From positions 8,759 through 72,758 of the forward strand of contig DYPH01000005.1 of the NCBI GenBank assembly GCA_020720045.1: a stretch of 64,000 nt of DNA, read 5' to 3'. Of this stretch, positions 19,214-25,173 are shown piece after piece. Position 1 is the stretch's first letter, and each line of letters begins with the position of its first letter. The position numbers were made by a program, and so were the translations under genes. This stretch comes from Sorangium cellulosum (GTDB lineage Bacteria; Myxococcota_A; Polyangia; Polyangiales; Polyangiaceae). A model generated the notes under the pieces. The model did not search any database. It had not been told where the DNA came from and saw only the letters and a list, made by a program, of their open reading frames with translations.

Positions 19214-20507
19214 TCATTCGTCGGGATCGGTCTCGCGGACGTTCGGAGTCACCACGAGCTGGTCCCGCTTTGCGTCGCGCGTGACGACGATTTCAAAGCG
19301 GCTCGTCTTGCCGTCGCCGTCGAGATCCCCCTCGGCGATCAGCGTACACGTCTGGCCGTCCTTCGAGGCGACGGCGCTGTACGCGTAGTACTGGGGCATC
19401 GTCATCTCGTAGCGGAGGCTCTGCCAGAACGGCGTGGCCCAATCCTTCGGGGTCGATTCGTACTTCTCCCCCTTGGGGACCACCGCCGGCGTCCGACTTT
19501 GCGAACCGATGCAGGCCGTCTTCCGTCGGGGCAAAATCTTGTTCGGATTCTTCGGGTCGAGGGTCTCGCGCTCGTAACTCATGACCACGTCGCGGGCCAT
19601 CTGGCCGAGGGCGTTCTTTGCCTCCGCCTGCTTGGTGGCGCCGACATACTTGGCGATCCCTTCGAGGACGGCCGCCTCGACGTCCTTTCCGAACTTTGCT
19701 GTAGCCGCGCGATCGCCGGGGAGGTTCAGCTCGCCATGGAGCCGGGCGCCTTCCGTCTTGAGGCTCGCCCCGGCGCGGAGCCGTTCGCCGAGGGCGCGGA
19801 CGCCAGGGACGTCGGGGAGTGGCTCGGTCATCGCGTGATCGAATTTGGCTTTGAGCAGCGGAACAAGTTCCGACTGAGCTGCCTCCGCATCGACGACAAG
19901 TCGCATCCCGCGATCGTCGATGGTGAGCGTGCCGCTGCCGACGACCGGGGTCTCTTCGCCGGGGACGTCTCCATAGCGTGCGGCGACGAAAGGTCGATGT
20001 GTCGACGCGGAGTGCTGAGGAATATTCAGTTTTTAGCCCATCAAGTGCTTCCGGCGACAGGGCGATCACAATCGTACCGCGGCGTAGATAGATCGCCCCG
20101 GTGCTCTCATCGACGGTCTTCTCGTCGGTCCCGCCGACGCAGGTGAATGCCTTTTTTGCCTCTTCTTCATTGGCAAATTCACCCGCCATGACAGCGGTTT
20201 TGTGGCCGAGGAGATTCCCGAAGGCAATGCGCTCGGCGGCGGCGAGTACGTCCCGGTAGCACGGGGTCTTCAGGCCGTTTTGGACCGCGCTGTAAAAGGG
20301 CGAGGCGCGCAGCCCAGCGCCATCGACCAAGACCTGCATACCGAAGCCCTTCTGAAACGCGTAGTTTTCCGCGTGGATGGGGGCGGCGACCCCCTTGGTC
20401 TTGCCGCCGTCGACGACGACGGCATCTTTCGGCGGTGGAGTTGCGGGCCCCCCGCACGCGGCAGTGAAGGGGACAAGGAGCGGGAGGAGTCGGAGGGCCG
20501 AACGCAT
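19214..20507 (-). pseudogene. Frameshifted lipoprotein gene
   Basis: The 5' part (20507 to about 20000) encodes a lipoprotein signal (FTAACGG) and coherent protein up to about ALRVDT. The sense then continues in the next frame (RPFVAARYGDVPGEET, then a region running to 19214). Moving between frames needs one surplus base to be skipped near 19988-20010. Restored, the product would be about 430 residues: a periplasmic lipoprotein with a Lys/Ala-rich helical middle and a C-terminal domain containing DGDGKTSRFE. I recognise no family. It is either a young pseudogene or a sequencing indel; both halves keep normal codon bias, which favours a recent event or an error. Confidence 0.75.
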
Positions 20508-20533: not shown

Positions 20534-22075
20534 CTAGAGGCGGGCGATGGTCCGACGGGAGAGGACGAGAAAGCGCCCGCTCATCGTAAGGGCGACCGTC
20601 ACAAGCCCCGCTGTGAGGCCGATCCAGAGGCCGCGTACGCCGAGTCCTTCATCAATATGAAGCAAAATAGCGATATATTTTGAAGGGTTGTAGCGGCTTA
20701 GATCGCCACTCCCGTAGGCGAGCGCCAGCGCGATCGGGTAGCCGACGCACCAGTGGGAGAACACATTGAGGAGGAAGGCGGCGTGCACATCGCCGACCCC
20801 GCGAAGGGCCCCGCCGGCGACCGCCTGCATGCCGTCGAAGAGTTGGAAAATCGCTGCAATATACAATAGTTGGCCCCCCAAGCGAATCACCGCGGGGTCT
20901 TGGGAGAACCGCGCCGCGAGGAACTCGGGGAAAAACGTGAAGATCAGCGCGCCGAAGAGTTGGACGCCGGCGCCGACGCCGATGCCGACGAGCCCGATTC
21001 GCCGTGGCGAGCGCCCTTCGCCGACGACGAGGCCGACGCGGACCGCCGTCCCGGCCGATACGCCGAGCGCCCCCATAAAGGTGAAGCTCGCGAGGCCAAG
21101 GGCGATCTGGTGGGCGCTCTCGGCGCGCGCCCCGAATTCCCCGGCGTGGAGGGCACACATGGAGAATACACCGATCTCCGCGAGCATCTGAAAGCCGATG
21201 GGGAGGCCGACGCCGAGGACCTTGCCAACGCCGAGCTCGTCGCTCGACGGCCGGTGTGGAAGTGGGCCCGCCGTCTCTCGCGACGCCGCTCCCAGCAAAT
21301 TCGCTGGCGGTCGCGAACGGACGGGCCCGTGTGACGTTGGGCCCGCATCGCTAACGTCGGTCGGGCGGAATCGGCGCGCCGCCATCCAAACGACGCCGAA
21401 GAGGGCGAGGCTCGCGACCGACGACGAGCAGCCAGCGCCGAAGGCGCCCAGCTTGGGGAGGCCGATGGCGGGAAGATGCAACGATCGCAGGGCGTCGTCT
21501 CCCCGCACAAAAAGCTGGCAAGCGATGAAATTGACGACGTTGGCCGTCCCCGTCGCGACGAGCGCGGGCGAGGTGTTCCCGTGGGCCTGGAGAAAGGTCT
21601 TTGCGACGAGAAATGCCAAGAACAGGAGCTGACCGGGCGCCTGGCCGAGGAGAAAAAGCCGCGCGCGATCGACGACGGTCGCCTCGACGCCGAAGCGCGG
21701 GAGCACGAAGGTGATTGCGAGCGAGCCGAGGACCATCAGTGGCCAGGCGATCGCGATGGCGGCGAAGGCGCTCGTTTGCGCTTTCCATGCGCGATTGGGC
21801 TGGCGGGCGCCGATCGCCTGGGCGGCGAGCGGCTCTAGCGCGGCGGCAATTCCAAGACCAAACGACAGCGCCGCAAAGCCGACCGAGCGCGCCAAGCCGG
21901 CGGCAGCGAGGTCGTCGACCGACTCGCGCCCGAGGATCGCGGTGTCGACGAGGCCCATCGCGACGAGGGCCACTTGCGCCAACGAAATTGGCGCGGAGAG
22001 CTTTGCAATAGCTCGGATTTCTTCGCGAATTGTCGGCTCAGTCAGCGTAAGAGAGGACGCGCTGCTCGCCGTCAT
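20534..22075 (-). CDS. MATE family efflux transporter
   Basis: The protein has 513 residues from ATG 22075, with twelve hydrophobic helices in two six-helix halves typical of MATE exporters (IAKLSAPISLAQVALVAMG, LVDTAILGRESVDDLAAAGL). MATE proteins export drugs or metabolites with Na+ or H+. A Pro/Arg-rich cytoplasmic loop of about 50 residues between the halves makes it longer than most members. The start overlaps the stop of the small lipoprotein gene by four bases (ATGA), so the two are translationally coupled. A patch of AT-rich codons lies at 20649-20690 (KYIAILLHIDEG). Confidence 0.92.
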   Translation of the reverse strand: MTASSASSLTLTEPTIREEIRAIAKLSAPISLAQVALVAMGLVDTAILGRESVDDLAAAGLARSVGFAALSFGLGIAAALEPLAAQAIGARQPNRAWKAQTSAFAAIAIAWPLMVLGSLAITFVLPRFGVEATVVDRARLFLLGQAPGQLLFLAFLVAKTFLQAHGNTSPALVATGTANVVNFIACQLFVRGDDALRSLHLPAIGLPKLGAFGAGCSSSVASLALFGVVWMAARRFRPTDVSDAGPTSHGPVRSRPPANLLGAASRETAGPLPHRPSSDELGVGKVLGVGLPIGFQMLAEIGVFSMCALHAGEFGARAESAHQIALGLASFTFMGALGVSAGTAVRVGLVVGEGRSPRRIGLVGIGVGAGVQLFGALIFTFFPEFLAARFSQDPAVIRLGGQLLYIAAIFQLFDGMQAVAGGALRGVGDVHAAFLLNVFSHWCVGYPIALALAYGSGDLSRYNPSKYIAILLHIDEGLGVRGLWIGLTAGLVTVALTMSGRFLVLSRRTIARL

Positions 22076-22365
22076 TTCCCGCAGTCGCGGATGTCCGCTT
22101 CCGTCTTCGCCGCCTTCACGCACTTCAAATACGATTCCGTCACGCGCTTGCCGACGCACGCCTTCACTTCCGCCTCGAGCTGCTTCTTGTAGCCGTCGAG
22201 CTTCTCTGTCCGCGTCTTCGCATCGAGCCCCGGATCGAGGGCGACCTCAATGTTCTTGTCGACGATGAGCTGGCAGTCGCTCTCCGTCGCCGGTCGGCCG
22301 CAACCGGTCGCAAACGCAACGAGCGCGGGCACCACGGCAAGGACGACAGCGGGGAGGCGAGCCAT
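22072..22365 (-). CDS. Small Cys-containing lipoprotein
   Basis: The protein has 97 residues from ATG 22365, with a signal peptide, a lipobox-like end (FATGC) and four further cysteines (SDCQ, KACVG, LKCVK, DCGK) that could make two disulfides. The mature part is helical and charged. I recognise no family, though small lipoproteins of this pattern recur in Polyangia. Its stop overlaps the MATE start, which links it to that exporter as a possible periplasmic accessory. An in-frame extension to 22716 was rejected because it overlaps the acetyltransferase gene. Confidence 0.75.
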   Translation of the reverse strand: MARLPAVVLAVVPALVAFATGCGRPATESDCQLIVDKNIEVALDPGLDAKTRTEKLDGYKKQLEAEVKACVGKRVTESYLKCVKAAKTEADIRDCGK

Positions 22366-22405: not shown

Positions 22406-23413
22406 TCAGCGCTTAACGACCGGTGCAGGATGCACGGAATAGCCGCGTTTCTCGTAGAAGCCGAGCGCCGTCGGGCGCGCGTCCAGGTAGACGCTTGCCG
22501 CGGAAGTACTGAAAGTACGAGCGATTTCTTCGATGTGGCCGAGGAGCGCAGCGCCCGCCCCGGTGCCCCGGCGATCCTCGCGAACGACGAGGTCATCGAC
22601 GTGGATGTGCGAGCCCCGCGCCAACGTGGTGACCGGCCGAAAGCCGGCGTAGGCGATCGCGGCGCTGGTGGACGTTTCACGAAGGATGAGAATTCGATAG
22701 CCGATGCAACGTGCATGCTGCACGCGTTCGATGAAGCTCGGGAGATCGAGCGCTTCCCGGAGCTGGCGGACGAGCGGAAACAGTTCCTTCAGGAGATCCT
22801 CTCCGTCCGCCTCTTGAAGAGTCCATGTGTTCTGCACACGTGTGTTCTGCACGCGTTCTCCGAGCCGGCGTCGCATTTCCGTCGCGAGGCGGAAATTCCC
22901 TGCACGCCAGAGCGTTTCTGCGACGGCCTCCGCATCTTCCGGGGCGCGATTCTGGGAAAGCTTCGCCTTGCCGATCGGCGCCTCGGTGACCGTAAGACGG
23001 CCGCCGACGATGCCGGGGAGCAGCGCTTCGGTCACTTCGGCGGCGATGACGAGCGCCGGGTCGTAGGCGGCGAGGAGGGCTGCGAGCGAAGTCGGTGCAT
23101 CTTCCACGGAAAGCGTTCCCGTGTAGGATGCAGCAAGATAGTTCCAGGTCGGTACCTGCTTGGGACTTTTGTACCAAGAGGAGGAGACGTAGCCGTGGGG
23201 GCCGGTCACCAGCATTTTTGCACGCTTCCCCGCCGTGAGTGCTTCCGCGATCGGGTTATTCCGGGCGACGTGGAAGAGGAGGTCGCCTGGCGGGCCCATG
23301 ACGAAGGGGACCGGCGTCGGCGCGACTGCGGGATCGTCGCAGACGAGCCAACCGAAGCCTTCTTCCGTGGCGATGGTCGCAGCGTCGCTCGTGAAGGGGC
23401 GCGGGAGGTACAT
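22406..23413 (-). CDS. PaiB-like FMN-binding domain fused to GNAT acetyltransferase
   Basis: The 335-residue protein joins two domains. Residues 1-185 match the PaiB/FMN-binding family (GFGWLVCDDP, LLFHVARNNP, GYVSSSWYKSPKQVPTWNY). Residues about 195-335 are a GNAT acetyltransferase with the acetyl-CoA loop REDRRGTGAGAAL and the C-terminal FYEKRGYSVHP. In Bacillus, separate paiA (GNAT, polyamine acetylation) and paiB genes lie side by side; here they are apparently one chain. The junction holds a duplicated VQNTR VQNT. Substrate and any regulatory role are unknown. The pyrG terminator lies just upstream. Three TGCA-N3-TGCA type sites occur in the gene. Confidence 0.85.
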   Translation of the reverse strand: MYLPRPFTSDAATIATEEGFGWLVCDDPAVAPTPVPFVMGPPGDLLFHVARNNPIAEALTAGKRAKMLVTGPHGYVSSSWYKSPKQVPTWNYLAASYTGTLSVEDAPTSLAALLAAYDPALVIAAEVTEALLPGIVGGRLTVTEAPIGKAKLSQNRAPEDAEAVAETLWRAGNFRLATEMRRRLGERVQNTRVQNTWTLQEADGEDLLKELFPLVRQLREALDLPSFIERVQHARCIGYRILILRETSTSAAIAYAGFRPVTTLARGSHIHVDDLVVREDRRGTGAGAALLGHIEEIARTFSTSAASVYLDARPTALGFYEKRGYSVHPAPVVKR

Positions 23414-23443
23414 TTGGTTTCCTCAGGAAGGCGCTTCAAACGG

Positions 23444-23472
23444 AAAGAGCGACGAGAATCTCGCCGCTCTTT
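23444..23472 (-). terminator. Intrinsic terminator of pyrG
   Basis: A 13-bp stem with one mismatch (AAAGAGCGACGAG and CTCGCCGCTCTTT) with a 3-base loop sits about 20 bases after the pyrG stop and before the next minus-strand gene. Confidence 0.75.
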
Positions 23473-23493
23473 TCCGGTTTCAATGGGGATGAC

Positions 23494-25173
<1,680 letters not shown>

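Follow-up and report, generated by a model that had tools for sequence, protein, structure and literature searches.

Organization of the locus

In the window, that is, the whole stretch of 64,000 nucleotides of Sorangium cellulosum DNA that was analysed, an open reading frame of 335 codons runs without interruption on the minus strand, starting 80 bases past pyrG, and encodes a PaiB-type domain joined to a GNAT acetyltransferase domain (Table 1). The ATG of this fusion gene is preceded, about 6 bases upstream and at good spacing, by a GAGGA Shine-Dalgarno sequence. A Pfam search of the encoded protein returned an N-terminal FMN_bind_2 domain (PF04299, residues 1-143, E 7.9e-26) and a C-terminal Acetyltransf_1 domain (PF00583, residues 242-325, E 9.7e-11). 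The respective scores, 91.2 bits against a curated cut-off of 22.4 and 42.4 bits against 20.7, place the two parts in the PaiB family and in the GNAT superfamily.

A terminator-like hairpin lies between pyrG and the fusion gene. Downstream, a small lipoprotein-like gene, a gene for a MATE efflux pump and a second lipoprotein-like gene follow in the same direction, and this order is also found in the sister species of the genus. The small gene and the MATE pump gene are probably in the same operon. In none of 27 other genera of the family does the fusion come after pyrG. A T run near position 19990, within the second lipoprotein-like gene, differs by one base from that of the sister species, whose gene is intact at about 430 codons; the frame is thereby broken, through either a sequencing error or a real frameshift.

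Table 1. Features of the fusion gene and its surroundings, with positions in the window
Feature	Position	Strand	Basis
pyrG (CTP synthase), upstream neighbour	23494..25161	minus	Pfam
Terminator-like hairpin between pyrG and fusion gene	23442..23475	minus	MFE -24.1 kcal/mol for 51 nt, z -3.1
Shine-Dalgarno GAGGA of fusion gene	23420..23424	minus	sequence
PaiB-GNAT fusion gene, 335 aa	22406..23413	minus	single ORF; Pfam; intact in sister species
PaiB-type split-barrel domain, residues 1-186	22856..23413	minus	PF04299; structural matches
His48, predicted heme-iron ligand (His-61 of SbPZS)	23270..23272	minus	24/24 PaiB rows
Asn53 (Asn-66 of SbPZS, heme propionate contact)	23255..23257	minus	24/24 PaiB rows
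Thr89 in PTWNY (Thr-102 of SbPZS, T98 of NohD)	23147..23149	minus	24/24 PaiB rows
Lys151 in KLSQN (Lys-173 of SbPZS, K167 of NohD)	22961..22963	minus	24/24 PaiB rows
Tandem pair of 15-base units, linker-encoding	22825..22854	minus	both copies also in sister species
Inter-domain linker VQNTRVQNT, residues 188-196	22826..22852	minus	AlphaFold2 pLDDT <50 for 188-194
GNAT acetyltransferase domain, residues 197-335	22409..22825	minus	PF00583; structural matches
Acetyl-CoA binding motif RRGTGAG, residues 281-287	22553..22573	minus	alignment
GNAT motif B GFYEKRGY, residues 318-325, invariant Tyr320	22439..22462	minus	alignment
Small Cys-containing lipoprotein-like gene, 40 bases downstream of fusion	22072..22365	minus	kept in sister species
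MATE efflux pump gene	20534..22075	minus	PF01554 E 5.5e-45; ATGA overlap with small gene
Another lipoprotein-like gene, downstream	19214-20507	minus	kept in sister species

The fusion is a single chain under selection

The sister species (G001/L046; contig JAAFHJ010000162 of a Myxococcales MAG), which comes from a separate assembly, encodes the same 335-residue fusion chain at 92% identity and without indels. Substitutions between the two genes number 18, 12 and 46 at codon positions 1, 2 and 3, and dN/dS is 0.24 overall, 0.14 for the PaiB part and 0.26 for the GNAT part. The codon-structured substitutions and the overall dN/dS indicate that both domains are under purifying selection as one frame.

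A preliminary description of this DNA had proposed a single-chain PaiB-GNAT fusion, and the uninterrupted reading frame, the two Pfam domains and the identical chain in the sister species all confirm that the fusion is genuine. No frameshift between the two parts was found, and the unbroken chain of the sister species rules out split or frameshifted genes. An internal start separating the parts is not supported either, as the nearest in-frame internal ATG, M179, falls within the last PaiB helix of the structural model and lacks a well-spaced Shine-Dalgarno sequence. The genome assembly is fragmented and the frame of a neighbouring gene is off by one base when compared with the sister species, but an artefact that joined two separate genes is in practice refuted by the identical junction, with codon-structured substitutions, in the other assembly. 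Together, these sequence comparisons support a fusion of a complete PaiB-type split barrel with a complete GNAT domain, maintained by selection in both of the species compared, which belong to one myxobacterial genus.

The AlphaFold2 model (mean pLDDT 86) contains two confident domains, PaiB ending near residue 186 and GNAT starting near residue 197; their placement relative to each other is uncertain (pTM 0.57). Residues 188-194 are the sole internal stretch with pLDDT below 50. This linker region is encoded by two tandem units, GCGTGCAGAACACAC and GTGTGCAGAACACAT. The repeat of VQNTR at the junction had been described as a recent duplication; the two 15-base copies are real, but both are already present in the sister species, and the duplication is therefore older than the species split. 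It encodes, and perhaps lengthened, a floppy linker between the domains. A derivation of the linker from a dispersed TGCA motif was suggestive but not supported, GTGCAGAACAC being found solely at the junction within 450 kb.

The dispersed motif itself, the palindromic dyad TGCA-N3-TGCA, occurs at 777 sites genome-wide (G000), against 49 for the reversed control. It is strictly spacing-specific, with 100 sites at N3 and 1-9 at other spacings in 450 kb, and lies mostly within ORFs; sites in the window include 22424, 22712, 28340, 31583 and 50192, among others. The sister species has 713 sites, and the distribution in other genera of the family is patchy (796 in a genome of 3.5 Mb, then 469, 341 and 209, with background levels elsewhere). 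This dispersal resembles the HIP1 phenomenon of cyanobacteria. Another repeat, at C92:685-758 of G000, consists of four TGCAGGATGCA copies with an exact 21-base period.

The PaiB part retains the residues of a heme site

In classical work PaiB is a regulator and not an enzyme. It was named a flavin-binding repressor, and its cellular role is unsettled. The top 32 Foldseek matches of the PaiB part are all PaiB, piperazate synthase (PZS) or NohD entries, nearly all of them heme-bound, and VIA-align of residues 1-188 against PaiB, PZS and NohD gave Z 17-19. By sequence, the N-hydroxylamine dehydratase NohD is the closest relative with a solved structure (E 5e-14), followed by PaiB and the piperazate synthases.

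PaiB has been reported to bind heme (9VYC), yet without N-N bond-forming activity, and proteins of this fold are homodimers with antiparallel split barrels (PMC13274692, 2026). The same study names His-61, which is the heme-iron ligand, Asn-66, Thr-102 and Lys-173 as key residues in SbPZS (PMC13274692). Their counterparts in the fusion, H48, N53, T89 and K151, are all invariant in our alignment (24 of 24 PaiB rows). Given that almost every one of the best structural matches contains heme and that the residues of the heme site are present, heme is a likelier cofactor of the PaiB part than flavin. FMN or redox control, as suggested in the preliminary description, is at odds with the heme complexes that make up most of the top matches, with heme binding by PaiB (PMC13274692) and with the conserved heme site; the suggestion traces to the Pfam name rather than to structures.

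A search of the 6.3 Mb genome gave the fusion gene as its sole PF04299 gene. The fused PaiB domain lacks a segment of about 11 residues, HExxxxPW, that is present in nearly all other aligned PaiB proteins. Its pocket may therefore be altered or inactive. Known PaiB proteins (Geobacillus stearothermophilus 2OL5 and 9VYC; B. subtilis paiB) share the fold, the Pfam family and the His/Asn/Thr/Lys set with the fusion, but they stand alone and carry the HExxxxPW segment. NohD (9OQS series) ranks first in Foldseek for the PaiB part, and the equivalents of its T98 and K167 are kept; T98A is among the NohD mutants with solved structures. Unlike the fusion, NohD is a stand-alone protein, and in the alignment its R144 appears to correspond to Val127.

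The piperazate synthases KtzT, PipS, SbPZS and LnzB likewise have the fold, the heme-ligand His, and the Asn, Thr and Lys in common with the fusion. However, the Asp-177/Lys-178 pair that follows their KLSQ motif is Asn155/Arg156 in the fusion, and the best match in the genome to lysine/ornithine N-hydroxylase (PF13434) is weak and partial, at 28 bits. On these two grounds, and because the HExxxxPW segment is missing, the fusion is not filed as a piperazate synthase, an identity that we disfavour. In known PZS fusions the partner is the hydroxylase rather than a GNAT (PMC11705231).

The GNAT part is not PaiA

Residues 190-335 match GNAT structures with Z 15-18, and the RRGTGAG sequence fits the R/QxxGxG/A acetyl-CoA motif of this superfamily. 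For assignment as PaiA we used the NCBIfam equivalog NF053587 with a threshold of >250 bits. The GNAT part had no match to this model at E 0.1, whereas a genuine PaiA that adjoins paiB on a Metabacillus plasmid, taken as a control, scored 331 bits; identity between the two proteins is 23% over 79 residues. PaiA identity of the GNAT part is thus rejected. The analogy drawn earlier with the adjacent paiA and paiB genes of Bacillus is a fair one, given the confirmed pair on the Metabacillus plasmid, but the GNAT gene that adjoins paiB in Bacillus relatives is PaiA, which belongs to another GNAT subfamily than that of the fusion. By sequence, then, the protein does not combine PaiA with PaiB.

Across 284 sampled genomes of the phylum, the closest relatives of the GNAT part are stand-alone GNATs of about 139 residues from a neighbouring genus, L159 and L160, with 43% and 40% identity over nearly the whole length. 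Polyamine acetylation, the activity proposed at first, loses support both from the missed PaiA model and from this nearest relative, a stand-alone GNAT of another kind. The neighbouring genus has PaiB genes of its own, on other contigs than L159 and L160. With the GNAT kin encoded as separate genes and PaiB elsewhere in that genus, the fusion probably arose from two genes that relatives carry apart.

Distribution of the fusion and of related architectures

Apart from the present fusion, the strong PF04299 genes in the 284-genome sample are stand-alone, and no other PaiB-GNAT fusion was found in this sample or among the 73 nearest PaiB homologues. These homologues were parsed from the 80 nearest loci in a collection of genome contigs, with the protein of the sister species as the one extended member; the C-terminus lies 95-118 residues past PTWNY in the parsed homologues versus 249 in the fusion. 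No plasmid record covered 80% of the fusion query, and a literature search returned no paper on PaiB-GNAT fusions. The rarity of the fusion applies to the sampled set, with Bacillota and Actinomycetota chromosomes outside the survey.

Nine weak PF04299 matches in the phylum were considered as further PaiB-GNAT fusions and rejected, since these proteins, 340-500 residues long, combine a Nim-like split barrel (PF12900) with a GNAT. These Myxococcota proteins have the same order as the fusion, an N-terminal split barrel and a C-terminal GNAT, but the split barrel is of another family and full-length similarity to the fusion is very weak. As this distinct family recurs in the phylum, the sequences indicate that the combination of split barrel and GNAT arose at least twice. 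L040, L041, L042, L045, L206-L209 and L211 make up a homogeneous PF12900-GNAT fusion family in Myxococcota.

Among 127 neighbours of the nearest PaiB homologues, MocR-type regulators dominate (24/127), and GNAT is absent from the 25 commonest families. Tandem PaiB genes beside a MocR-type regulator were seen at L055:4001-5298 (the alphaproteobacterium Dongia) and at L214:2501-3748 (Cytobacillus, on a Bacillus-type plasmid), the latter pair followed by a LysE exporter. In the record of a linear 'plasmid' from Staphylococcus aureus (L216), msaC and PaiB occur twice in inverted orientation, which may be a palindrome created by the assembly.

Proposed function

Intact heme-binding and acetyl-transfer motifs and folds, as seen in the sequence and the model, reside on one selected chain. 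On this basis we tentatively favour a dimeric enzyme that would have both of its activities on one chain and act on a small amine- or hydroxylamine-type molecule. The PaiB part would bind heme b and form dimers in the manner of PaiB, piperazate synthase and NohD; His48 would hold the iron, and the heme would sit where the two subunits meet. This domain would perform Lewis-acid heme chemistry on such a molecule, or at least bind it, and the attached non-PaiA GNAT would acetylate the same or the resulting amine. Product or toxicant may leave the cell through the MATE pump, whose gene is the second one downstream of the fusion. The two activities would be coupled through the chain itself and not by flavin redox control. 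Points against this reading are the missing HExxxxPW segment, the uncertain placement of the domains in the model, the classical view of PaiB as a regulator, and the weak N-hydroxylase match in the genome, given which an N-hydroxylamine substrate would need an outside source.

Less likely is a switch in which a chemically inactive PaiB domain gates the GNAT allosterically in response to heme status or to a ligand such as NO. Such a switch would fit the short linker, the conservation of every heme-binding residue and the report that PaiB binds heme but has no N-N bond-forming activity (PMC13274692). However, the catalytic-type Thr89 and Lys151 are also kept and are not obviously needed by a pure sensor, although PaiB itself keeps both, and a sensor role of PaiB was not found in the literature examined. 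Retention of the catalytic-type Thr and Lys favours the two-activity enzyme over a heme-gated acetyltransferase, but not strongly.

We consider it doubtful that the protein is a two-step enzyme in which the heme domain acts on a toxic or biosynthetic hydroxylamine, by removal or rearrangement of its N-hydroxyl group, after which the GNAT caps the amine by acetylation and the MATE pump exports it. Equally improbable is a PaiB domain that is catalytically dead and serves as a dimerisation scaffold for the GNAT. A scaffold would agree with the missing HExxxxPW segment and with the homodimeric, antiparallel split barrels of the fold (PMC13274692), but the PaiB part has the lower dN/dS of the two and has lost none of the heme-site residues examined. 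Finally, an FMN- or redox-controlled polyamine acetyltransferase made by fusion of PaiA and PaiB is very unlikely, for although Pfam labels PF04299 'putative FMN-binding' and paiA and paiB adjoin in Bacillus relatives, the structural neighbours carry heme and the GNAT part misses a model on which real PaiA scores high.

Significance

PaiB is now seen as heme-binding and as related to hydroxylamine-processing enzymes, and the database label 'FMN-binding negative transcriptional regulator' may mislead. Should the two-step reading prove true, the pairing of the PaiA and PaiB genes in Bacillus would gain a chemical explanation. The effect of the fusion is limited because it is seen in one genus only, which makes it a modest novelty, open to testing, and not a new type of system. 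As a natural fusion, it physically ties a heme-type PaiB domain to acetyl transfer and provides one protein in which both activities may be assayed.
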